From Desulfurococcales archaeon (lineage in GTDB: Archaea > Thermoproteota > Thermoprotei_A > Sulfolobales > Acidilobaceae), in contig WAOQ01000036.1 in NCBI GenBank assembly GCA_015521205.1, forward strand, positions 1-34,509: a DNA stretch of 34,509 bases, in the 5' to 3' direction. Position 1 is the first letter of the stretch. Every line of letters starts with the position of its first letter. The notes below the pieces were generated by a model that had not been told where the DNA came from, did not search any database, and saw only the letters and a list, made by a program, of their open reading frames with translations. The position numbers and the translations under genes are program-made. Positions 1,213 through 15,922 of this stretch are shown here, one piece after another.

Positions 1213-2406
1213 ATGGGAAGAAACGTAGCTATAGTGGGAACCGGGCACTCAAAGTTCGGCAACCGATACGACGTTAACATCCCCGAGCTAGCATGGGAGG
1301 CCATCAAACAAGCCCTAGACGAGGCGGGCGTCGACCAAAAAGACATAGACTTCGCGTCGTTCTCCAACGTGGGAGGATGGAGCAGTGAGCCCCTACCAGC
1401 ACTTGTAGTACTGGAATATGCGGGGCTAACACCCAAGGCTACCTATAGAGTAGAAGCAGCATGTGCCTCCGGCAGCGCGGCGATCAAAGCTGCCCATGAC
1501 GCCGTAGCCAGCGGGCAAGCCGACATAGCCATTGCCATAGGAGTTGAGAAGATGAATGAGAGTCCGACGCCGACGGTAATAGAGTTCATAGGCAGGGCTG
1601 GCAACTATTTCTGGGAGTTCCAAAACTTCGGTCTCACTTTCCCCGGATATTACGCGTTATACGCGACAGCCTACATGGACAAGTACGGTGCAACCGAAGA
1701 AGATCTATGCCGTGTAGCCGTGAAGAACCACTACTATGCAAGCCTCAACCCCAAGGCACAATTCACCAAGCCGATAACGATGGAGATGTGTATGAACAGC
1801 CGGTACATAGCATGGCCACTAAAACTCTTCGACTGCAGCCCTATAACCGATGGTGCAGCCGCCGTCATACTAGCCAGCGAGGAGGTAGCCAAGAAACTCA
1901 CCGACAGCCCCGTATGGATCGAAAGCATAGGAGTAGCCTCGGGAACCAGCAACCTATCCAAGAGACAAGGCTTCCTAAGCCTAGAGGCCGCGGTAGAAGC
2001 TGCTAACATGGCCTACAAGAAGGCAGGCCTAAACAGAGAAGAAATCGTGAAACACATCGACGTAGCAGAAGTACATGACTGCTTCACCATAGCAGAGATA
2101 CTTGCATACGAGGATCTCGGCTTCGCCAAGCGCGGCGAAGGATACAAGCTACTCAGGGAGGAACAAACCCACAAAGACGGTCTAATACCGGTCAACCTCA
2201 GCGGAGGACTAAAAGCCAAGGGACACCCGCTAGGAGCTACCGGCATCAGCATGGCAGTAGACCTTACCAGGCAACTCCAAGGCAGAGTAGAGAAGGGACG
2301 CCAGGCAACCATCGTCAACGGGCGCGCACTAGCACACAACATAGGTGGAACAGGGCACTACGCCTACGTTACACTATACAATTTGTCTAAACCCCGCACA
2401 AGGTAG
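1213..2406 (+). CDS. Thiolase family protein (SCP-x/acetyl-CoA C-acyltransferase type)
   Basis: The 397-residue protein has the thiolase fold of the archaeal SCP-x-like group, which condenses or cleaves acyl-CoA thioesters (for example two acetyl-CoA to acetoacetyl-CoA). The nucleophilic cysteine is C84 in EAACASGSAA. The second active-site segment is VHDCF (H288), and GHPLGATG supplies H338. NIGGTGH near residue 378 replaces the second cysteine motif of classical thiolases, as is usual in this subgroup. The gene is followed 13 nt later by a DUF35 protein, its usual complex partner in archaea. In many archaea HMG-CoA synthase is clustered too, but it is not seen here. With acyl-CoA dehydrogenase downstream, a role in fatty-acid oxidation or in mevalonate synthesis is equally possible. 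ATG 1213 follows a GGGGTG ribosome site. Confidence 0.85.
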   Translation: MGRNVAIVGTGHSKFGNRYDVNIPELAWEAIKQALDEAGVDQKDIDFASFSNVGGWSSEPLPALVVLEYAGLTPKATYRVEAACASGSAAIKAAHDAVASGQADIAIAIGVEKMNESPTPTVIEFIGRAGNYFWEFQNFGLTFPGYYALYATAYMDKYGATEEDLCRVAVKNHYYASLNPKAQFTKPITMEMCMNSRYIAWPLKLFDCSPITDGAAAVILASEEVAKKLTDSPVWIESIGVASGTSNLSKRQGFLSLEAAVEAANMAYKKAGLNREEIVKHIDVAEVHDCFTIAEILAYEDLGFAKRGEGYKLLREEQTHKDGLIPVNLSGGLKAKGHPLGATGISMAVDLTRQLQGRVEKGRQATIVNGRALAHNIGGTGHYAYVTLYNLSKPRTR

Positions 2407-2419
2407 GAGGTGAGACGAG

Positions 2420-2974
2420 ATGTCAAACCAAAGGGAACAGGCGGACATGTTCCTCCGCCAGATGGAAGGCTTTGCCAACGAGATGAAGAAAGCCGTCGGG
2501 ACTCCGATAATACCGGAGCCAAAGAGTGGATCCCAGCTATGGTACGACCAGCGTGAAATCAAGCTCAAATTCCTGATCAGCGTCGAGAAGATCAAAAAGT
2601 TCTTCCACGAAGGACTAGCAGAAGGCAAACTCCTAGCCACACGATGCAAGAAGTGCGGTCGGAAATACTTCCCACCACAAGTAGACTGTCCCTACTGTAA
2701 AACAAGCGAGATGGAATGGGTCGAACTACCACGCCGTGGGCACTTAATGACCTACACTATAATCTATGTCAAACCCTACAGCTTCGGCCACTACCCCGAC
2801 TACACCGTCGGTATAGCAAAACTCGAGGATGGCACACAGGTCACCGCTTGGGTCCGAGAGACCGACCCTAAGAAGCTCAAGGTAGGCATGCCAGTACGCG
2901 TTGAAATAGTGAAACGCGAGCCGGAAGGCTACTTTACCTACGAGCTAGTCCCCGAGACCGAGGAATCACAGTGA
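2420..2974 (+). CDS. DUF35 zinc-ribbon/OB-fold acyl-CoA-binding protein
   Basis: This 184-residue protein has an N-terminal helical region, a zinc ribbon with cysteines C76, C79, C90 and C93 (RCKKCG ... DCPYC), and a C-terminal OB-fold (roughly residues 98-180). Proteins of this family bridge thiolase and HMG-CoA synthase in archaea, binding CoA and helping transfer of acetoacetyl-CoA. The start ATG follows GGAGGTGAG in the 13-nt gap after the thiolase stop, so the two genes are co-translated from one operon. With no HMG-CoA synthase nearby, it may act here only as a thiolase partner. The family assignment is firm; the exact pathway is inferred. Confidence 0.85.
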   Translation: MSNQREQADMFLRQMEGFANEMKKAVGTPIIPEPKSGSQLWYDQREIKLKFLISVEKIKKFFHEGLAEGKLLATRCKKCGRKYFPPQVDCPYCKTSEMEWVELPRRGHLMTYTIIYVKPYSFGHYPDYTVGIAKLEDGTQVTAWVRETDPKKLKVGMPVRVEIVKREPEGYFTYELVPETEESQ

Positions 2975-2980
2975 TAAAAC

Positions 2981-3014
2981 AGTTTTACAAAACTCGAATC
3001 CAACATGCTTTTTT
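2981..3014 (+). terminator. Probable terminator of thiolase-DUF35 operon
   Basis: A short inverted repeat AGTTTT-AC-AAAACT (2981-2994) is followed by a run of six T (3009-3014) after the DUF35 stop. Archaeal termination mainly needs the T run. Confidence 0.45.
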
Positions 3015-3026
3015 CCCCACTTAAAC

Positions 3027-3036
3027 CAATAAAAGG
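3027..3036 (+). promoter_or_regulatory. TATA box for acyl-CoA dehydrogenase gene
   Basis: CAATAAAAGG just after the T-run terminator is a plausible TATA box, giving a leader of about 50 nt before the ATG at 3111. Confidence 0.4.
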
Positions 3037-3049
3037 TAGACACGAACCC

Positions 3050-3100
3050 ACCCCCGGAAGAAAAGCCTATCCAGGCCACACGCCTCGGGGGTTGGAGGTG
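3050..3100 (+). promoter_or_regulatory. Leader hairpin abutting the ribosome site
   Basis: ACCCCCG (3050-3056) is perfectly complementary to CGGGGGT (3086-3092), and a smaller GCCT/AGGC stem lies inside. The ribosome site GGAGGTG (3094-3100) starts directly after the 3' arm, and two of its bases could extend the stem across one mismatch. The hairpin could modulate ribosome access; this is inference. Confidence 0.3.
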
Positions 3101-3110
3101 TAGATACCCC

Positions 3111-4307
3111 ATGGTGTTTCCATTCCAGAGCATAGAGGATTTCAAGGTCGAGATTACAGAAGAGCACGAGCTATTCCGAAAGATGGTCAGAGAGTTTGTC
3201 GAGGAGAAAGTGATTCCCCGATGGCAGGAAGTAGAGCGGGAGAACAAGTTCCCCGACGAGATACTCGAAGGTATGAAGGAGATGGGGCTCTTCGGCGTAG
3301 GAGTACCCGAAGAATACGGTGGACAGGGAGGAGGACAAGTCCTCACCGCGATCCTCATGGAGGAACTAGCCAGAGGAATCCCAAGCCTAGCCGTTAACCT
3401 AGGCGTCAACCACCTCTACATGATACCCATACTCCTCTTCGGCAACGAAGAACAAAAGAAGAAGTACGTAACGCCCGTAGCGATGGGGGAGAAAAGGGGA
3501 GCCCATGCCAACACAGAGCCCGGCGCTGGTAGCGACGTAGCCGGCATACAGACCAAGGCGAAGAAGGTCAACGACCACTACGTGATAAGTGGAAGAAAGA
3601 TATTCATTAGCGGAGCCGAGGAAGCCGACTACCTCATAGTCTCCGCCAGGACAAGCCCGCCCGGCGAGAAGCGTTGGCAGGGAATAAGTGTCTTCATCGT
3701 GGAGAAGGACTGGCCCGGAGTAGAGATAGGCCAGAAGTTCAACGTCATAGGCATGAGGGGCGAACAGCCCAACGAGGTCATACTAGACGAAGTCAAGGTT
3801 CCAGCTGAGAACCTAGTCGGGCAAGAAGGCATGGGCTTCAAAGTAATCGTCACCACCTACGACCACACTAGGATCGGCATAGCCGCACAGGCAGTCGGCA
3901 TAGGGCAAGCAGCCTTCGAGAAAGCCCTCAACTACGCACTCCAAAGATACACCTTCGGACAACCACTAATCTCCTATCAAGCCATCCAGTTCAAGCTAGC
4001 CGACATGTACATGAAACTAGAAGCATCCAGACTCCTAACACTCTGGGCGGCAAGCCTAGCAGACCAGGGTAGAAGCGAGTTCATCATCGCCAGCAGCCTA
4101 GCCAAAGCCTTCTCGACCGAGGCGGCAGAGTGGATAGCAAGGCAAGCAGTCCAAATACACGGAGGCTACGGCGCAGACTGGGAGATGGGTGTAGAACGCT
4201 ACCTAAGAGACGCGGTCATAACAACGATATACGAAGGGACAAACGAGATCCAAAGGCTAACCATCATCAGGAGCCTCCTCAGACAAGCCTTCGGGCTCCG
4301 CGTCTAA
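3111..4307 (+). CDS. Acyl-CoA dehydrogenase
   Basis: This FAD enzyme introduces a 2,3-double bond into an acyl-CoA, the first step of beta-oxidation or of branched-chain acyl-CoA breakdown. The 398 residues have the normal three-part build: N-terminal helical domain (about 10-125), middle beta domain with [12 protein letters not shown], and C-terminal helical domain ending IYEGTNEIQ. The catalytic base of the medium-chain type is E375 in YEGTNE. QIHGGYG near residue 350 is the FAD-contacting motif. It has its own promoter and a GGAGGTG ribosome site. Its 3' end overlaps the converging gene 4257-4994 by 51 bases. Chain-length preference cannot be read from the sequence. The electron acceptor (ETF) is not in the window. 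Confidence 0.9.
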
Positions 4308-5053: not shown

Positions 5054-5500
5054 TCAGCTCTTCGACAAGCAATCACTCCAATAAACAAACCCATTAGCAG
5101 TATACACCTTGTAATGAACCATACTACCAGCTGGTATGACCGGAGACGTGGTTACACGCAACCACACATCGCTACCGACCCTAACATGTATCCCGTCAGA
5201 GGCAACGTAGGCATCACCATCTACAATAGAGTAAACATCAATACCAGTAACATTCGTTCCTGTAACCTCTACCTTCGTTATAGTAGCCTCAGGCCTCAAA
5301 TGGGTAAAAATATGCAAATACAAGGCACCCTCAGTAGAGTTATAGTAAGTGTCATAATAGAAATAAATACCTTCACTCTTCTCGGTACTTGTCACATTCC
5401 AAAAACCGAGCAACCAGCCTGCAACAGCGATCGAAATAGCAATAGCAACAGCAACAATAATGACCGTGGCTATCACGGGTGATATACCAGAACGTGACAT
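5054..5500 (-). CDS. Type IV pilin-like protein 1
   Basis: This 148-residue secreted protein begins MSRSGISPVIATV, a class III signal peptide. The prepilin peptidase should cut after the glycine of RSG, leaving ISPVIA and a hydrophobic helix of about 20 residues (VIIVAVAIAISIAVAGW) that forms the pilus core. The rest is a beta-rich, NxS/T-containing head domain with several glycosylation sequons. It is the first in order from the left of three tandem pilins and the most divergent in its head domain. The start is ATG 5500 rather than the TTG immediately before it. A TATA box at 5563-5572 gives it its own promoter. Its head ends in a lone cysteine (WSDCLSKS). Confidence 0.85.
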   Translation of the reverse strand: MSRSGISPVIATVIIVAVAIAISIAVAGWLLGFWNVTSTEKSEGIYFYYDTYYNSTEGALYLHIFTHLRPEATITKVEVTGTNVTGIDVYSIVDGDAYVASDGIHVRVGSDVWLRVTTSPVIPAGSMVHYKVYTANGFVYWSDCLSKS

Positions 5501-5548
5501 CAAATTCCCACACCCTTAACCAGTCATTCTACTTACCCGTTTCTCCTA

Positions 5549-5659: not shown

Positions 5660-6109
5660 TTAGCTCTGGGCTACAACATATCCCTGATACACACCACCAG
5701 AATCAGTATACACCTTCACAACATACTGAGCACCAGGAGTAACTGCATTCGCGAAATTGGACGCCGCAAAGGTGACTTGAATAGATTCCGTCTGTCCTTG
5801 TGGTACTGTGAACGGCAACGTTTCGTTAGTGGTGACGCCTGTTTGCCCCGTAGCTCCCACTCCCACTAGTTCAATTTTTGTTATTACTGCGTCTTTACTA
5901 CCAGTGTTCTTCACATTAACAGTAAGAATCCATCCAGTAGTACTGTTCTCCAGATTCGTTGTTGGGAGTACTTGTAGTTGCTCGGTACCACCAAAAGTAC
6001 CCCAGAGACCCATAAGCCAGCCTGCAACAGCGATCGAAATAGCAATAGCAACAGCAACAATAATGACAAGAGCTATAACAGGTTCAATACCAGCATTTAC
6101 CCTCTTCAT
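5660..6109 (-). CDS. Type IV pilin-like protein 2
   Basis: This 149-residue pilin begins MKRVNAGIEPVIALV. Cleavage after AG would leave IEPVIA, with glutamate near the mature N-terminus as in the archaeal consensus. The hydrophobic helix that follows is identical to that of the other two. The head domain is closely related to pilin 3: both carry GTEQLQVLPTT, NTGSKDAVITKIELVGVG and the C-terminal YVVKVYTDSGGVYQGYVVAQS-type segment. Start ATG 6109 is set by the GGAGGG ribosome site 7 nt upstream; the in-frame GTG further out overlaps that site. Long blocks of DNA are identical with pilin 3, pointing to recent duplication or gene conversion. Confidence 0.88.
   Translation of the reverse strand: MKRVNAGIEPVIALVIIVAVAIAISIAVAGWLMGLWGTFGGTEQLQVLPTTNLENSTTGWILTVNVKNTGSKDAVITKIELVGVGATGQTGVTTNETLPFTVPQGQTESIQVTFAASNFANAVTPGAQYVVKVYTDSGGVYQGYVVAQS
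5662..5730. repeat. 69-bp block identical to 6264-6332
   Basis: The 3' end of the pilin 2 gene is identical, base for base, to the 3' end of pilin 3 over 69 bp, including all synonymous positions. Confidence 0.85.
5994..6067. repeat. 74-bp block identical to 6590-6663
   Basis: The block encoding the conserved pilin core helix in pilin 2 is identical to that in pilin 3 over 74 bp. A 60-bp part (5414-5473 versus 6613-6672) is likewise identical between pilin 1 and pilin 3. Confidence 0.85.
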
Positions 6110-6164
6110 CGAATAACCCTCCACTCAAAAGAAGGAATACTAATAATATAATTCTGGAGCCAAA

Positions 6165-6261: not shown

Positions 6262-6696
6262 TCAGCTCTGGGCTACAACATATCCCTGATACACACCACC
6301 AGAATCAGTATACACCTTCACAACATACTGAGTACCAGGGGTAACTGTACCACTTGATACCTTTAGCTGGATGCTTTGTGTTTGCCCTTGTGGCACTGTA
6401 ACACTGCTAAAACTTGTACCATTCGCGAATGTTAATCCGCTAGTAGTATCTCCTACACCCACTAGTTCTATTTTGGTTATTACTGCGTCTTTACTACCAG
6501 TATTCTTAATATCAACCGTAAATAACCAGTCGGTACCGCTCTTCTCAAGTTTTGTAGTTGGGAGTACTTGTAGTTGCTCTGTACCACCCAAAGTACCCCA
6601 GAGACCCATAAGCCAGCCTGCAACAGCGATCGAAATAGCAATAGCAACAGCAACAATAATGACCGTGGCTATTACGGGTGAGATTCCTTTCTTCAT
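6262..6696 (-). CDS. Type IV pilin-like protein 3
   Basis: The 144-residue protein begins MKKGISPVIATV, the textbook archaeal class III signal peptide (K-K-G cut site followed by ISPVIA) and a hydrophobic helix. The head domain has the same architecture as pilin 2. The start is ATG 6696 because GGAGGTG lies 8 nt upstream; the in-frame upstream codon lies before this ribosome site. A strong TATA box at 6770-6778 gives a leader of about 50 nt, and a T run ends the transcript, so it is probably a monocistronic, highly expressed gene. It is a paralogue and a likely conversion partner of pilin 2. Confidence 0.88.
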   Translation of the reverse strand: MKKGISPVIATVIIVAVAIAISIAVAGWLMGLWGTLGGTEQLQVLPTTKLEKSGTDWLFTVDIKNTGSKDAVITKIELVGVGDTTSGLTFANGTSFSSVTVPQGQTQSIQLKVSSGTVTPGTQYVVKVYTDSGGVYQGYVVAQS

Positions 6697-6769
6697 TTTG
6701 TCTGCACCTCCCACCATTGTATTGGCGGGGTTTGAGAGTTGTGTTCGGTGTTTAGTGTTATTGTGGATG

Positions 6770-6853: not shown

Positions 6854-8713
6854 TTAGGTTCCTATTGTTATTTTTCCTAGCACTAGTATTGTGGCTATGA
6901 GTGTTATTATTACGAGTATTGTTGCATGGCGGAATCCTCCTGCTATTGAGCTGTCCTGTATTTTTCCTGCTACGAATCCCATTAGCCAGGAGTTGAATAT
7001 TCCTCCGACGCTTAGCATTGTTGCTACTCTTGCTATGTCTTGGGGTGTGAGATGGGTTCCTCCGCCGACTGCTACTTGTTCTCCGGTTATTCCTAGTGTT
7101 TGGATGGAGAATGATAGTACTAGGAGGCTTGCTACTGAGACCATTATTGCTCCGAAGTAGGGCATCATTATGAATGTGCGTAGTCTTCTTCGGAGTTCTT
7201 CTTCGAGGTCTACTATGCTGTTCGCGTATCTTGCGAGGCTGTCTAGTGTTTGGCTTGTGCCTCCGCCTACTTCTATGCCGTCGGCGAGGAATCTCATGTT
7301 GGCTAGGAGGATCCAGTTTCTCATTCCTCTTAGTGCTCTTCGCATTGCTTTTTCGAGGTCGAGTCCTATGTTTATTGCTACGGCGATGCGTCGTATGATC
7401 TTTGTTAGGGGTCCGTAGTCTCTTTCTGCTAGCATTACTATGCTTTTCTCGGGGCTTAGCCCGGTTTTCCTTACTTCTGCTAGGTCTCTTAGGAAGTTGG
7501 CGGTGGCCCGGTCTACTCCTTTGTTCTTGCGTTTCTCTTTTTCGTATACGATTAGTCCGGGGGCTGATATGGTTACTAGTGTGGCTCCGACTGTTAGGGA
7601 CATTCCTTGTATGGCTTGTACGCTGTAGTTTCCGTGGAAGACGCTGATGGCGTTGGTGGCGTAGAGGAATACTACGAATACTGTGAGGGATAGTGGTAGC
7701 CCGTAGAAGATGGAGAACCTGTAGGGTAGGTTGTATACTATGGGGGTCTTGGGCTGGGCGGAGTGTATCATGTAGAGTATGAGTATGGTGAGTGTGGGGA
7801 GTAGGACGAATGTGAAGAGGGCTAGTTGTGCGGTGCCTCCTAGTCCTCCTGCGGGGAAGACCGCTGATATTGTGAAGAATATGTAGAATACTAGTGTGAG
7901 TATGACTGCTATTGTTATGTATAGTTCTGTGAACATGCTCATTCTCTCGGCTATAGTTTTCAGTTCCTCTGTGCGGCGTGCGAATATGTCTTGTGTCCTT
8001 ATTTCTAGGTAGTGTAGAACGTCGCCGCCCGTCCTCACGGTGGTTACGTATCCGAGTATGAAGTCCCTGTAAAGTGTGCTTGGGTGATCGAGCGCGTTGT
8101 GTTCGAGGGCTTCTAGAGGGTCTTTACCGAATACTATGACGTCTCTTACAACGCGGCGCGCCTCCTCGCGCATTGCCTTGAATACTTTGAGGTTGGCTAC
8201 TCGTTCCAAGACCTTGGATACGTCTACGCCTCCTCTCGCCATGGTGGTTAGGTATGCCGTGAAGAATGGTAGCTCGGTCTCAACTCCTGATCGTCGTGCG
8301 CCTGTGGCCATTGAAGGGTATCCTATCATTAGCCCGAATGCTATTGCGGGTGAGAGGAGTATGAGTATGATTAGTATGAGTTTGGCGGCGAGGCTTATGG
8401 GGAGGAAGGCTGTGAGTAGTGAAATGTATATCGCCAGTGCGGCTATGGAGGTCGTTATTGCTAGGACTCTGGCCGCGTAGAGTTCGGGGTAGTAGTTTAG
8501 ACCGCTCTGTTTTATGGCTCGTTCTAGTTCGAATGTTTTTACGAGGCCTTTGGCGTATTTTCCGAAGTATGCTACGGAGAGGTAGTCTATTACGTCGCCG
8601 AAGGTTACGCGTCTCCTCTTTGGGCGGGCTAGGCGTTCTCGGGGACGTCTTAGCCGTCTTATTCTGTCTTTGAACCTTGCTATTTTTCTTCTGAGTCCTG
8701 TTGTGAGGGGCAT
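6854..8713 (-). CDS. Type IV pilus assembly membrane protein, TadC/FlaJ family
   Basis: This is the inner-membrane platform on which the ATPase acts to polymerise pilins. The 619 residues carry a basic N-terminus (about residues 8-35, rich in R/K), a first membrane block (about 80-130), a T2SSF domain containing FLPFFTAYLTTMARGG-like and GYVTTVRTGGD motifs, a second membrane block (about 260-330), and a second T2SSF domain (about 465-570) with the DGIEVGGGTSQTL loop. The C-terminus has further membrane helices. Two T2SSF domains are standard for archaeal FlaJ/TadC proteins. Start ATG 8713 follows GGGGGTGT; the open frame extends upstream into the ATPase gene but reads as low-quality basic sequence there. 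It lies 32 nt after the ATPase stop in the same operon. Confidence 0.88.
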   Translation of the reverse strand: MPLTTGLRRKIARFKDRIRRLRRPRERLARPKRRRVTFGDVIDYLSVAYFGKYAKGLVKTFELERAIKQSGLNYYPELYAARVLAITTSIAALAIYISLLTAFLPISLAAKLILIILILLSPAIAFGLMIGYPSMATGARRSGVETELPFFTAYLTTMARGGVDVSKVLERVANLKVFKAMREEARRVVRDVIVFGKDPLEALEHNALDHPSTLYRDFILGYVTTVRTGGDVLHYLEIRTQDIFARRTEELKTIAERMSMFTELYITIAVILTLVFYIFFTISAVFPAGGLGGTAQLALFTFVLLPTLTILILYMIHSAQPKTPIVYNLPYRFSIFYGLPLSLTVFVVFLYATNAISVFHGNYSVQAIQGMSLTVGATLVTISAPGLIVYEKEKRKNKGVDRATANFLRDLAEVRKTGLSPEKSIVMLAERDYGPLTKIIRRIAVAINIGLDLEKAMRRALRGMRNWILLANMRFLADGIEVGGGTSQTLDSLARYANSIVDLEEELRRRLRTFIMMPYFGAIMVSVASLLVLSFSIQTLGITGEQVAVGGGTHLTPQDIARVATMLSVGGIFNSWLMGFVAGKIQDSSIAGGFRHATILVIITLIATILVLGKITIGT

Positions 8714-8745: not shown

Positions 8746-9789
8746 TTAGAATAGTGGGCGGGGCGCTGTTAGGCTGTGTATTTTGCCTGTGGCTTGTCTG
8801 TAGACCTGTTCTGGGTTTGCGTAGTATTGGTGGATTACTCTTGCGAAGCGTCTGTAGTCGTATATCTTTTCGACTGCTGCCCATTGGAGCACTGCGGCTC
8901 TCCTGTTGATTTCCTCGAATATCCAGTCCATGGATTTGCCTGCCTCTTCGGCTATGCTTTTTAGTATTATACTGTTGTCTAGGTAGAGTTCGTGTTCTCT
9001 TGTAGCGGGGTTCCACCTGGCTACTCGGGGATAGTCGCCGAAGTCCCTTATTTCCCAGACGTCTGTGACTCTTCGGACTATCTTGTATGTGCCGTCGGGC
9101 TGGTAGAGTCTGACGCGTTTTATTACTAGTGCGAAGTTCATGAGTGGTATGTAGCTTTGGGGTATGTTCATGGGGGGGCTGATGAGCCTTTTCACCGCGG
9201 CGTCTATGTTTTCTGCGTGTAGGGTTGTCAGTCCTCCGTGCCCGGTTGCTATGGCTTGGAAGAGGACGTATGCTTCCTCACCGCGGACCTCTCCGACGAT
9301 TATTATGTCCGGCCTGTATCTGAGGCTTACTCTGATTAGGTCGTAAAGGCTTATCTCGCCTATCTTCTCTGGCCCTAGCCCGTAGCTCGGCCTTGATACG
9401 AGTTGTACCCAGTTTTCGAGGGGGATCCTGAGCTCTGGGGTGTCCTCTATAGTGACTACTTTGATTGTGGGGCGGAACATTGTTGCTAGCCCGTTGAGAG
9501 TTGTGGTTTTACCGCTTCCGGTGACACCCATTATGAGGCCGGTCATCTTGAACTCCATTGCCAGCCAGAAGTAGGCTGCTAGTTCAGCGCTTATAGTGCC
9601 GCCACGTATCATTTCGGGGACTGTTAGCGGGTTTTCCCTGAATTTTCTTATGGTGAAGCTGGATCCGCCGACGCTTACTTCTCTCTTGTAGGTGGCGGCT
9701 AATCTATGGCCTCCTGGGAGTATAGCGTCGACTATTGGGAATGCCACGCTTACATGTTTTCCGGCTTTGTGCGCTAGTCTGAGTATCAT
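8746..9789 (-). CDS. Type IV pilus assembly ATPase, C-terminal fragment (TadA/VirB11/GspE family)
   Basis: This part holds the whole ATPase core: Walker A GVTGSGKT (residues 88-95 from ATG 9789), Asp box TIEDTPEL, Walker B DIIIVGEVRG (161-170), and His box ATGHGGLTTLHA (181-192). It would power pilin assembly with the TadC-like protein next door. The fragment begins exactly where intact homologues continue in one chain. The frame upstream is the same, and only a TAA at 9804-9802 and four further codons (T-L-D-S) separate it from the N-terminal part. There is no ribosome site ahead of ATG 9789. Either the gene is a pseudogene, or the halves are made separately, or the TAA is read through or is a sequence error. 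Confidence 0.85.
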   Translation of the reverse strand: MILRLAHKAGKHVSVAFPIVDAILPGGHRLAATYKREVSVGGSSFTIRKFRENPLTVPEMIRGGTISAELAAYFWLAMEFKMTGLIMGVTGSGKTTTLNGLATMFRPTIKVVTIEDTPELRIPLENWVQLVSRPSYGLGPEKIGEISLYDLIRVSLRYRPDIIIVGEVRGEEAYVLFQAIATGHGGLTTLHAENIDAAVKRLISPPMNIPQSYIPLMNFALVIKRVRLYQPDGTYKIVRRVTDVWEIRDFGDYPRVARWNPATREHELYLDNSIILKSIAEEAGKSMDWIFEEINRRAAVLQWAAVEKIYDYRRFARVIHQYYANPEQVYRQATGKIHSLTAPRPLF

Positions 9790-9801
9790 GCTGTCGAGTG
9801 T

Positions 9802-10407
9802 TTATTCGTCGGTGAAGACTATGTTTGAGGGTATGCTTTCGAATTCTCTGTGCCAGACGAATATTGGCCTGTTCAGTCCGTCACAGCTTATATCCTCGAC
9901 GTAGGGGTCCTTGAATAATGGGTCTATGACGCCGAATCCTATGGTGTCCCTTATTATGTAGTAGAGGATCTTAGCCCAGCTGACGCCTGGGAGTAGCCCA
10001 AGGCGTAGTTGGTACCTGCTTATGACCCGTTTTGCTTCCCGTTGGAAGTGCTCTTGGTAATCAACGCCGGGGGGTGGGGGTTCGAGTTCCCAGTAGAGTA
10101 TATCCATGAGTTTGTCATAGAGTTCTTTCTCGTCTCGGCTGAGCGGGATCTCGTCAACTATATAGCGGCGATCTTTGGTTTCAGGGTTTTCTACTATTAC
10201 GGCGTGGGACCAGGGGTCCTCGAGGGGGTATCGCTTTATGATTTTGTAGCCTCTGGGTATACCCGTGGCTATGTACCCGCTCAATCTTTCGCGGGCCATC
10301 TCCTCAATCTGTCTTCGGAGTATAGACTCCGCTTCTTCGGGGGTCGGAGCTTTTTCTTCCTTCTTCTTTTTACTTAGTAGTCCTTTGATTTTTGGTAGTC
10401 GTGGCAA
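9802..10407 (-). CDS. Type IV pilus assembly ATPase, N-terminal fragment ending at in-frame TAA
   Basis: The 201 residues form the N-terminal domain of the same ATPase: a lysine-rich start (LSKKKKEEK), then the conserved GFGVIDPLFKDPYVEDI and the HREFESIPSNIVF segment that in the family leads straight into the second half of the N-terminal domain. Translation stops at TAA 9804-9802 right after FTDE, in a place with no domain boundary. N- and C-fragments plus five codons would give about 553 residues, normal for an archaeal TadA-type ATPase. The start is TTG 10407 because an in-frame stop precedes it closely and GGGAGGAGG lies 11 nt upstream. It is the first gene of the operon with the platform protein. 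Confidence 0.82.
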   Translation of the reverse strand: MPRLPKIKGLLSKKKKEEKAPTPEEAESILRRQIEEMARERLSGYIATGIPRGYKIIKRYPLEDPWSHAVIVENPETKDRRYIVDEIPLSRDEKELYDKLMDILYWELEPPPPGVDYQEHFQREAKRVISRYQLRLGLLPGVSWAKILYYIIRDTIGFGVIDPLFKDPYVEDISCDGLNRPIFVWHREFESIPSNIVFTDE

Positions 10408-10533
10408 AACTTATTGCCTCCTCCCGCTGTTAAGCATCCCAAGAACCTCATTGACCTCATAGGAGTAATAACTTTTCCATTGAACTCAACGACAATGTCA
10501 TCCAGCATCCTATGAATGGATGTGTAGGATAAT

Positions 10534-10657: not shown

Positions 10658-13600
10658 TTGAGTAGCAAAGATTCGACAAGCCTTGGGAGAATCCTCCCAG
10701 CTATTCTACTTATAATAACACTCCTAGCAATGCCGGCAACCACTGTCAGCGCACAAAACAACCAGTTGCCCTTCGAGGTTACCGTATCGCTATCCCATAT
10801 CTACAATGCCATGAAATACGAGTTCCTCAACAACTACTCGTTAAGAACAGCCATCCAAGACGAGAACCGTTCAATAATCTATATGGCTGGAACGGGTTTT
10901 GCCGCTGCACTAAACCCCTATGAGGGCAGCGTATCTTGGACTTATAGCTTGACGGGAACCGCTACGGCAATGTCTATATCCGGGAGCCCTGGGCGATGGA
11001 TGGGTATAGGGACTGACGCAGGAGAGTTAGTGGCTATTGACACGTTTAACGTCTCTAATTCCAAGTACTTCCAAGGTGTTAGAGGGTCTGTCACCGGTCT
11101 CGAAGTTGCCGGGGATGCTAATGGGTATGTCCTAGGTGGTGTTGACGATCAAGGTTTCCTATACCTTTACCGGATAGGAAGTCCTTACTGGTTCGAGATG
11201 GGCCCGACCCCTGATCCTTCGGTATACCGTTCCCTGGCAAACTATACCGTTATGTCCGTAAACGTCCTTGAAAACCGTACCTCAACCTTGTCCTACGTTA
11301 AAAACTCGTCTCTCATGCTTGTATATGCCGCCCCTCAAGTAGGCGGCACGCTCATGCTTCCCACAATCGTTGGCGAACTCTACTATCTCAATGGGACAGA
11401 TATTATACCAGCGTCCCTCGACCCCAAAGGCATAGGAGGATCCGAAAATACCAACTATACCGTTAATGCCTCCTACATAATTCTTATACACAACAATGAT
11501 ACTGGCGGTGAAAGCTATTACAGTAGCATCATAGAGCTTAACGGTACCGCTTACCCTGTTAGTTATAGGTTCCATTTGCTCCCGGGAAAGTATTCGGTTT
11601 CTGTATATCTCAGCTATGCATATTTCAACCAGACGAGTAATACGACCATGTACTATAACTATTCTATAGATTCTATTCCATTAGAAGTGAAGCCGAACAA
11701 CCTGCACGTCCTGACAAGTTGGAGTACGCCTCTTAACCAAACCACAATGCCCCCTCCCTCCCTTGAGAATGCCAACAGTGATCCCTATCTTAGCATCCCC
11801 AAAGGCTCATATTATACCCAGTTTATACTTCTAAACGCTTCTAATGCGCCGAATATCGATCCAAACAGAGACCTTCGCTTCCTATGGCTCCCTCTACCCC
11901 TCTATGGTGGAACCACGGGGACTATCGATTTTCCAGGGGATCTTCGGGTACTAGCCTTCGTCTCACCCCCGCAAGCACCGCCTGCCTGGTCTAACCTCAG
12001 CATTATGCCATGGGGACCCGCTACCTCGCTGCTCGTTATAGGGGGAGACGATTTCGTGGCATTCTATTATCTGAACGAGACGGGTGGGAATGCCACCTTC
12101 TTCTATCAGTGGAGCTTTATGGACGGTACACCGTATACTGCAGATGTATCCCCCGACGGCAGGATGATTGCTGTAGGCACTAGTGGGGGTTTGACATACC
12201 TATTCGTCTGGAACGATACAGAGGCAAGATATACTGCCGCGTGGACCTACGCTCTAGGAGAACCTGTTGACAAGGTTAGGTTCCTCCATAACGGTACATA
12301 TCTCTTGTTGGGCGGGGACAACGGCGTGCTCCAGCTCATGAATTTGTCAATCAACCCCCCGGTTTGGCAACCCCTCTGGAGAGGCGGGCCCGGGTTTAAC
12401 GGTATTATAAGTGGGGTATCCCCCCTGGCCGGAGTCTTAGCAAGGGATACTATGGATTACATAGTAATAGTTCCCGCTGAGGGCTCGTATGTAACGGCTA
12501 TGAAAGAATTAAACCCAGATAATCCTAGGCTTTACCCATTGTTAGTCTACTCCACCAACTACTATCATTACCTCAACGGTACAACAACCAACGAGCTGGC
12601 ATTAGGCAGGAACTTTACCCTATACGAAGACGGATCGCCCGTCGCGTTCTCTACCGTCACGAACATAACTTCCAACCTAACAGCCGCCCTCTTCTACGTA
12701 CCAGTGGGAATATACAACGTAAAGACCGTATACTCGGGATATGGCGAAGCCTATACAAGCGTAACGGTGAGTGGCGGAGGAGTTACAACCGTTGACCTAG
12801 ACCTCCATCTTACAGAACATCTAATACAAACCATTGTGCCTGAGCCGAGTGACTCCACCGACGGTACAAGGCTGGTCGCCGGTCCCTTGCCGGAGGTACA
12901 GCTCTCGCTTAACGCTAGCGCCTCACCGCAAGGTTTGATACCGTACGACCTAAACGCGGAGACCGATGCCCAAGGCCAGGCGCTTGTATGGGTTTGGAGC
13001 AACATTACCTACATCATAACAGCCTCAAAGGAATATTACCTACAACCATCGCCAGTCACCTTGCCTGCATCTCCAAGTAGTAGCAACGTGACTGTGGAAA
13101 TGCTGCCAGTACTAACGGATGTCTATTTGAACATTGTCGACTCCGACCTTTATTCTATAGGTCAAAACTACCCGGTAACAGGAGCCACTGTAGTCATCTC
13201 GACTAACGGGAGGAATATGACGTTAACTACGGATCAGTACGGAACTGTCCACGTTAGGTTGCCCGGCGGCTCGTTTACCTTGTCTATAAATGCGCAGTAC
13301 TACTATGTCGACGTTGAAAGGCTTGATATACCATTCTCCAACACGCCGTCCCCCGTATACGAGACCATCCTCTTGAACCCTATCTATTATACGGTATCCT
13401 TACAGGCACTATACAATCCAGACACTACAGAGGGCTTTGTATCGGGCGGCGTGCCCAGCGTTACTGTAACTGCCGTCCACCAAGGACTAACTATTCCCCC
13501 CATCACAGTGGTCACCGGCCCCGACGGCAATGCGTACCTATCGTTGCGTGCTGGCAACTATACGCTTACACTTTCAAGCCCCTACACAGAGACTACAACA

Positions 13601-15922
13601 TTACCGTTACAGGTGACTGGAGATGCTAATATACAGGTACAGTTGGATGCTAAACAGTCTAGCTTTACCCTCAGGATCATAGACATAAACTATAATGTAC
13701 CGATTCCGGGGGTAGAGGTAAAACTCACATATGTAGGCGGTAATAGCAAAGTATTCACATTGGAGAACGGTTCTCTACAGGTCTCCATACCTTACGGTGA
13801 CTATACGCTGGAAATAACGCATCCAAGATACATCGGCATCCAAACCACCCTAACGGTAGATCGGCCTTCAATCTCCACCTCAACACAATTACAACCCAGA
13901 TACGCCTACCTCACTATAGAACCACAAAGTGCAGAAAACGTGGTAAATATCACATCGGCATACACGGTAACGTTCCCAAGGACGCCCATACAACAATTCC
14001 AAGTCATTATAACACCCTGGGACGATTTCCTCTCCTACCTAGGCATAGGTAATTACACACTCTACACTCCAGATACTCAGCTCGGCATAAGCCTTTACGT
14101 TGGAATCTACAATGTAACAATAATCCGTGACGGCTTCCAACCGTTAACCATCACATTAAACCTAACTGGTGACCTTGATCTTCAACCATTGCTACAGTCC
14201 ATCCTCTACAATGTAAACCTAACCTTCATCGATCCGACACTAAATCTCCCTGGAGGGGTGATACCCATATCAAACCAGTTGCCTTTATCGCTCACGATAA
14301 TCTCTTGGAACGGGATACAATTAGGCGTATCGGCTAGACTGACAGATCAAGCAGTGCTAACCCTACCGCCTGGATACTACGTTTTAAACGCATCCCTTGA
14401 AGGATATCAACCAATCTTGATCGATCTAGAAGTGGAGGAGGACACACAGTATACGGCGCTCGTTGATCCTATCACAGTAGCAGTAACAATAGATCTCACA
14501 GCAGTAGACTCGTCCACCGGCGAGGAGTTAGGACCCATCAACCAAGGCAACCTAACACTAGTCTACACACCACTCCCCCTAACCACGAACACTACAGTAG
14601 AAGTCAACTTCGGAACAGTCTCTACCGACCTAAGACCCGGGGTCTACACTGCTATTTACAGCTATATGGACCTAGTCCTCCAAGCACAGTTCCAAGTCCC
14701 CGAACAGGTAGATACAGCAGAAGTTAGGGTAGAGTTCACCGTGCCTAGAATGGAGTTCCTATTCACTGTTTCCGACGCTGAATCGTCGTTATATGATGTT
14801 AATGCTACCGTTGAACTACATTATCTGGGTCCATTTGGAAATGTGGAGGATGCCGTGTTCTCCGTATCAACTAGGCAGGGCGCGGTATCCCTTAGGTTAC
14901 TGCCGGGCGTATACGAGCTAACCGCGATGGCAAAATACTACGTTAATACAACACTAAGCCCGGTATACCTGCTGTCTCCGAACACTACAGTTAACATACA
15001 AATGGAACCCATAAAGTACTATGTAACGTTTGACGTGAGAACCCCCGAGGGCGATCCCGTAGCACGTGCTAGACTAACACTAGTCAACCTAGATACAGGC
15101 GAGACCGTCACCACGTCCGTAATAGACGGGACAGCATCTATAACAGACGGTCTCAGAGCAGGCAGGTACTCGGCGTCCATTATGCCAGAAGCATACTATC
15201 TACGCGAGTCCACTATAACCGTGACTATCCCGGATAATCTTACTGGCGCATCAATCATACCTGTTACCCTAAACTATACCATGTTCAATATAACAATAGA
15301 GCTACGGGACTCTCAGACCGGGAACCTCATAGGCTTGTCATATCTGGTAAAATATGTCAGAGAGGGTAATCTCGAATGCGCAAATTGCAGTGGATCATTC
15401 AATGTATCCGGGAAAGGAAGCATAATATTACCGTATGGCACATACAAGCTTACCTTCTCACCATTAACAATGGACGTATACACGTTCCCCGACGAGGTAA
15501 CGATAGAGGCGGACGCTAACAAAACAGTCCCCGTAACAGCTGATCCCAAGATATACACTGTAGTAGTTACTGTAACCAATGACCTAGGAGAGCCATTGAA
15601 AGGCGCTCTAGTCACAATCGTTGATTCGAATGGTATAATACGGTTTGGCGGATTGACAACCGACGACGGTACTATTGAGGCACAGTTGACTTATGGTGCA
15701 TACCAGGTTGTAGTCGATGCAAACGGGTACCACCAGTTGCAGAAAACAATAACGGTGCCCGACCAAACGAATGTACCCCTAAGCCTCCAACCAACTCTTA
15801 CGACCAAACTGAAACGGATGACGCCGATATTCGTGGGCATGGCGGGTCTCATAATATTTGGAATAGCGTTCTATAGGATAAGTAGGAGGATAATGGGGCG
15901 AATGGAAGAAGAGTACTTCTAA
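10658..15922 (+). CDS. Giant secreted surface protein, beta-propeller plus repeated Ig-like/carboxypeptidase-regulatory domains, C-terminal membrane anchor
   Basis: The 1754-residue protein starts with a signal peptide (ILPAILLIITLLAMPATTVSAQ, shown by the hydrophobic run and AQ cut site). Residues about 50-650 read like beta-propeller blades (for example ADVSPDGRMIAVGTSGG and LLLGGDNGVLQLMNL). From about 670 to 1700 come many repeats of roughly 80-100 residues of the carboxypeptidase-regulatory/Ig type, each with a PGxY or LRAGxYTL-like turn. The C-terminus has one membrane helix (IFVGMAGLIIFGIAFY) and a basic tail. N-glycosylation sequons are very frequent and lysine is scarce, as in S-layer-associated archaeal proteins. 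It starts at TTG 10658 with GGTGAT upstream, and is divergent from the pilus operon. A cell-surface adhesin, stalk or S-layer anchor is likely; the exact role is unknown. Confidence 0.75.
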   Translation: MSSKDSTSLGRILPAILLIITLLAMPATTVSAQNNQLPFEVTVSLSHIYNAMKYEFLNNYSLRTAIQDENRSIIYMAGTGFAAALNPYEGSVSWTYSLTGTATAMSISGSPGRWMGIGTDAGELVAIDTFNVSNSKYFQGVRGSVTGLEVAGDANGYVLGGVDDQGFLYLYRIGSPYWFEMGPTPDPSVYRSLANYTVMSVNVLENRTSTLSYVKNSSLMLVYAAPQVGGTLMLPTIVGELYYLNGTDIIPASLDPKGIGGSENTNYTVNASYIILIHNNDTGGESYYSSIIELNGTAYPVSYRFHLLPGKYSVSVYLSYAYFNQTSNTTMYYNYSIDSIPLEVKPNNLHVLTSWSTPLNQTTMPPPSLENANSDPYLSIPKGSYYTQFILLNASNAPNIDPNRDLRFLWLPLPLYGGTTGTIDFPGDLRVLAFVSPPQAPPAWSNLSIMPWGPATSLLVIGGDDFVAFYYLNETGGNATFFYQWSFMDGTPYTADVSPDGRMIAVGTSGGLTYLFVWNDTEARYTAAWTYALGEPVDKVRFLHNGTYLLLGGDNGVLQLMNLSINPPVWQPLWRGGPGFNGIISGVSPLAGVLARDTMDYIVIVPAEGSYVTAMKELNPDNPRLYPLLVYSTNYYHYLNGTTTNELALGRNFTLYEDGSPVAFSTVTNITSNLTAALFYVPVGIYNVKTVYSGYGEAYTSVTVSGGGVTTVDLDLHLTEHLIQTIVPEPSDSTDGTRLVAGPLPEVQLSLNASASPQGLIPYDLNAETDAQGQALVWVWSNITYIITASKEYYLQPSPVTLPASPSSSNVTVEMLPVLTDVYLNIVDSDLYSIGQNYPVTGATVVISTNGRNMTLTTDQYGTVHVRLPGGSFTLSINAQYYYVDVERLDIPFSNTPSPVYETILLNPIYYTVSLQALYNPDTTEGFVSGGVPSVTVTAVHQGLTIPPITVVTGPDGNAYLSLRAGNYTLTLSSPYTETTTLPLQVTGDANIQVQLDAKQSSFTLRIIDINYNVPIPGVEVKLTYVGGNSKVFTLENGSLQVSIPYGDYTLEITHPRYIGIQTTLTVDRPSISTSTQLQPRYAYLTIEPQSAENVVNITSAYTVTFPRTPIQQFQVIITPWDDFLSYLGIGNYTLYTPDTQLGISLYVGIYNVTIIRDGFQPLTITLNLTGDLDLQPLLQSILYNVNLTFIDPTLNLPGGVIPISNQLPLSLTIISWNGIQLGVSARLTDQAVLTLPPGYYVLNASLEGYQPILIDLEVEEDTQYTALVDPITVAVTIDLTAVDSSTGEELGPINQGNLTLVYTPLPLTTNTTVEVNFGTVSTDLRPGVYTAIYSYMDLVLQAQFQVPEQVDTAEVRVEFTVPRMEFLFTVSDAESSLYDVNATVELHYLGPFGNVEDAVFSVSTRQGAVSLRLLPGVYELTAMAKYYVNTTLSPVYLLSPNTTVNIQMEPIKYYVTFDVRTPEGDPVARARLTLVNLDTGETVTTSVIDGTASITDGLRAGRYSASIMPEAYYLRESTITVTIPDNLTGASIIPVTLNYTMFNITIELRDSQTGNLIGLSYLVKYVREGNLECANCSGSFNVSGKGSIILPYGTYKLTFSPLTMDVYTFPDEVTIEADANKTVPVTADPKIYTVVVTVTNDLGEPLKGALVTIVDSNGIIRFGGLTTDDGTIEAQLTYGAYQVVVDANGYHQLQKTITVPDQTNVPLSLQPTLTTKLKRMTPIFVGMAGLIIFGIAFYRISRRIMGRMEEEYF

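Follow-up and report, generated by a model that had tools for sequence, protein, structure and literature searches.

In Archaea, simple type IV pilus loci comprising genes for a secretion ATPase, a TadC-like protein and pilins have been described, and many of the genes found at pilus loci in this group have been judged to be regulatory or dispensable (PMC4858521). Recoding is established in Archaea for UGA (selenocysteine), UAG (pyrrolysine) and -1 frameshifting (PMC8211752), while conservation of the interrupted form has served as a criterion to separate readthrough genes from pseudogenes and errors (PMC1914089). The window considered here, a stretch of 34,509 nucleotides, is the entire contig C36 of an archaeal MAG (G000; 768,821 b, 49 contigs, 55% complete) from an Aeropyrum-like family that also includes the complete genome G012. 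It contains a locus matching the simple archaeal arrangement, with the order ATPase, TadC-like protein and three PilA-type pilins being common to the window and to genomes G018 and G008. In the window, the ATPase gene is interrupted by one in-frame TAA codon, whereas the remainder of the pilus operon is intact (Table 1).

Table 1. Features of the pilus locus in the window.
Feature	Coordinates	Strand	Basis
Type IV pilus assembly (secretion) ATPase gene, one in-frame interruption, 553 codons if read through	8746..10407	-	Reading frames; Pfam T2SSE (PF00437) and PilB3_C (PF23989); PDB 2OAP, 4II7
Ribosome-binding site region of the ATPase gene, GGGAGGAGG, about 8 nt before TTG	10410..10425	-	Sequence
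5' fragment, 201 codons, TTG start; N-terminal region ending just before the stretch TLDSMILRLAHKAGKH	9805..10407	-	Sequence and structure-family alignment
In-frame TAA, codon 202; sense (mostly Glu/Asp/Lys) in all relatives	9802..9804	-	Sequence and alignments
3' fragment, 347 codons, opening with the first ATG after the stop; entire catalytic domain inside; no ribosome site ahead	8746..9789	-	Sequence, Pfam
TadC-like platform protein (T2SSF), 619 aa, intact; 59% identical to the same-place gene in G018 and G008	6854..8713	-	Domain and comparison
PilA-type pilin, intact	6262..6717	-	Sequence
PilA-type pilin, intact	5660..6124	-	Sequence
PilA-type pilin, intact	5054..5503	-	Sequence

The initial annotation had described two same-frame ORFs parted by a TAA and four sense codons, with reading through restoring a continuous, family-normal ATPase, and both points were confirmed. 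The stop codon is the sole interruption of the frame and is followed by ACA CTC GAC AGC, while the read-through product shows 67% identity over residues 20-545 to its best relative, from G018, with no indel at the stop. The TTG start of the upstream frame is preceded by a strong ribosome site. The ATG that opens the downstream frame lies in frame some 13 nt past the TAA and, as had also been claimed, no ribosome site was found in the 30 nt preceding it (GTCTTCACCGACGAATAAACACTCGACAGC). The Walker A (GVTGSGKTT), GEVRGEEA and ATGHGG motifs are all found within the 3' fragment.

The read-through product matches the T2SSE domain with a score of 114.2 bits (curated cut-off 24.9) as well as the PilB3_C domain, and the closest solved structures are PDB 2OAP (E 4.7e-104) and 4II7 (FlaI; E 1.7e-74). 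Assignment as the archaellum motor FlaI was considered and rejected, since a score of 352 bits against the NCBIfam equivalog NF058587, with its cut-off of 550, indicates a related protein that is a pilus ATPase instead. The T2SSE score, the presence of the motifs and invariant residues, and a neighborhood including a TadC-like protein and pilins with a class III signal place the gene among archaeal type IV pilus secretion ATPases of the T2SSE/PilB3 type. A second, distant ATPase is encoded on contig C34 of the same genome. In alignments to 2OAP and 4II7, residue 202 is flanked on either side by a conserved stretch of the N-terminal domain; a split at this position would therefore be predicted to cut that domain, in agreement, at the level of sequence, with the earlier statement that the interruption coincides with no domain boundary.

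Adjoining the pilus operon (positions 10658-15922) is a gene for a divergent 1754-aa surface protein containing carboxypeptidase-regulatory-like and PEGA-type repeats. Large, fast-evolving relatives (25-26% identity) occupy the corresponding position in G018 and G008, and the protein is possibly an adhesin linked to the pilus. Separately, the TadC-like gene, which is one 619-codon frame in the window, is divided in G012 (C1:1401044-1399315) between two different frames with 153 bases between them, reflecting either a natural two-gene form or a frameshift.

Alignment with homologues, which the initial annotation had put forward as a check, was extended to 214 genomes of the order. A strong match was found in 142 of these, G000 included; as the match in G129 falls short of the site, 140 other genomes cover it. 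In none of the 140 does a stop codon lie inside the ATPase gene, such that G000 is unique among the 141. Genomes G125 and G131 were initially flagged, yet their stops lie past the C end of the gene or before its start, where the alignment had overrun the gene, and recurrent loss within the order was accordingly rejected. In each of the 140 genomes, both flanks of the stop match one uninterrupted gene, and the arrangement in the window is therefore more than the chance adjacency of two frames. The aligned relatives span the site with no indel, an adjacent one-residue gap or longer insertion being seen only in a few distant homologues, and all carry a sense codon there. Apart from the residues most often encoded, Arg, Val, Met, Gly and Gln also occur, marking codon 202 as a variable position. 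Taken together, the lack of an indel and the sense codon in relatives identify the lesion as a single-codon nonsense change, absent from orthologues as is the disabling lesion of a young pseudogene. A second genome of the same species or genus was sought but not found.

In the course of these comparisons, inteins were observed at two sites in the ATPase orthologues L031 (G008:C28) and L019 (G013:C7), as well as in about a dozen further genomes. At the first site, inside Walker A, the intein comprises 261 aa (SVAGTT...LVHN before T); at the second, just before TGHGG, it comprises 448 aa and includes a LAGLIDADG domain. Both match Pfam Intein_splicing, and the ATPase gene of the window has neither. 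Many other orthologues consist of open frames of 800-1534 aa in which matches are broken at the same two places.

The rest of the ATPase gene was found to be intact, as had been reported. None of the 82 invariant residues of the close family has been replaced, a result that limits replacement changes since any loss of constraint to about 16 at the 5% level, given that some 16 or more random replacements would hit an invariant residue with 95% probability. Third codon positions are far more diverged than second positions, while relative-rate counts against several outgroups revealed that changes unique to G000 are in mild and uneven excess, most markedly before the stop. These observations imply that the stop is either recent or not real. 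It thus seems probable that an ordinary type IV pilus assembly ATPase gene of Archaea has become a loss-of-function allele through a single nonsense substitution, very recent and specific to this lineage, in a variable codon.

It is unlikely that the protein is still made, whether because the TAA is read through, because translation restarts at ATG 9789 or because the two fragments cooperate as a split ATPase. Such continued synthesis would be in line with the intact state of the whole 3' fragment and the proximity of the in-frame ATG, with the variability of codon 202 in relatives (E, D, K, R, V and others), suggesting that an inserted residue would be tolerable, and with the known cases in which archaea recode (PMC8211752). 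On the other hand, proven stop redefinition in Archaea involves UGA and UAG, with no UAA case being mentioned in that review; TAA is the commonest terminator in G000; and the RNA following the stop folds no better than do shuffled sequences (z 0.58). No tRNA with a UUA anticodon was detected among the 29 tRNAs found in this genome, 55% complete and with an incomplete recovered set, even when introns were included in the search; taken singly, this absence carries little weight. Because the stop is absent from all relatives, the gene falls outside the class of readthrough genes recognized by conservation of the interrupted form (PMC1914089). Likewise, in none of the 140 other genomes is the gene split at this site, contrary to the true two-gene form that had been raised as an alternative, and the predicted position of the cut inside the N-terminal domain also argues against a split enzyme. 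That an active pilus ATPase results, either from UAA readthrough at a tolerant codon or from reinitiation downstream to give a two-part enzyme, is slightly more doubtful still. A product from beyond the stop, were one to be found, would make the gene an unusual archaeal instance of UAA recoding.

A partial or complete reassignment of TAA in this organism was addressed by considering stop codon use across the genome. It was rejected as most improbable, given that nothing beyond the single in-frame TAA speaks for it, whereas TAA ends 157 of the 337 intact conserved genes of G000 for which both ends are in hand, and no other conserved gene contains an in-frame TAA between conserved flanks. When 467 genes (409 kb) were scanned against G012, the ATPase gene provided the only clean in-frame stop between conserved flanks, other apparent internal stops proving to be antisense shadow frames or alignment ends. 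The reverse comparison revealed no clear in-frame stop in G012, where hits resembled antisense frames, with the exception of one weak case in a poorly conserved segment. In the search for tRNAs, ARAGORN reported a tRNA-Pyl (cta) on contig C18 (L058, 1414-1523, - strand). This is, however, tRNA-Gln (CUG) with a misplaced intron, its exons being 98-100% identical to G012 tRNA-Gln, and such a miscall is a trap in searches for suppressor tRNAs.

One other broken conserved gene was noted in G000. This gene (L081, contig C42, approximately 1858-3204) encodes a subtilase with 70-82% identity over the mature part to an Aeropyrum-type protease and contains both an in-frame TAG (2231-2233) and a frameshift near position 2911. 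It is probably a true pseudogene, and its state indicates that real gene decay occurs in this genome.

As the main alternative, the TAA could reflect a consensus or assembly error, or a base from a minor strain, with the living population having an intact gene. This explanation is tentative, although it is compatible with the fragmentary nature of the MAG, with the lack of other decay in the ATPase gene and with the finding of one isolated lesion in 467 genes, the yield that would follow from a few erroneous consensus substitutions per 100,000 bases. Moreover, a contig of a related MAG (L035) is labelled with a coverage of only 2.3, a value that does not refer to C36 but shows that genomes of this kind may be thinly covered. 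An error rate of 1e-5 per base would, however, be expected to produce just 0.23 nonsense errors across the 534 kb of conserved genes, and one of 1e-4 about 2.3. Furthermore, frameshifts and stops are not in excess elsewhere in the genome, the only other broken gene having two lesions and resembling true decay, and no homopolymer or repeat was found at the stop site. We infer that the cell truly carries this base. Given one clearly decayed gene and a lack of further isolated lesions in the genome, we lean toward a real mutation, which we would put at about twice as probable as an error, a judgement rather than a calculation. Counting against decay are the lack of a second lesion in the ATPase gene and the intact state of the rest of the operon. 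Of the causes offered in the initial annotation, a recent event and a sequence error thus both accord with a single-codon nonsense change, absent from relatives, in an undamaged gene, while readthrough, reinitiation and a two-part ATPase found no support.

If the gene indeed carries a recent nonsense substitution, translation from the ribosome site and TTG at position 10407 would stop at codon 202, releasing a 201-residue fragment without the nucleotide-binding domain. A functional ATPase would then not be expected from this allele nor, by extension, assembly of the pilus that depends on it. The loss may be too young, or confined to one strain of the population, for more damage to have accumulated. 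A solitary nonsense change in a single incomplete genome has little significance at present and is ordinary whether real or an error. If the base is real, the locus would neatly illustrate how one mutation can disable a pilus apparatus whose other parts all remain intact.

Among known systems, the gene shares an interrupted but otherwise conserved frame with archaeal recoded genes, such as the alpha-fucosidase of Saccharolobus, expressed by -1 frameshifting, and genes in which UGA or UAG specifies selenocysteine or pyrrolysine. It differs from these in the use of UAA and in having no slippery tract, structure or conserved interruption, nor was a matching tRNA found. Young prokaryotic pseudogenes with a single lesion also present one nonsense change, an otherwise undamaged gene and a lesion absent from relatives, although the base in the window is known here from the consensus sequence alone. 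Further counterparts are the type IV pilus secretion ATPases of Desulfurococcales and Sulfolobales, members of the GspE/PilB3-FlaI superfamily represented by 2OAP and 4II7. With these, the window gene shares all domains in the same order, including the PilB3-like domain at the C terminus, together with Walker A and the His box, as well as a downstream TadC-like gene followed by genes for PilA-type pilins, and it is set apart from them by the in-frame TAA at codon 202.
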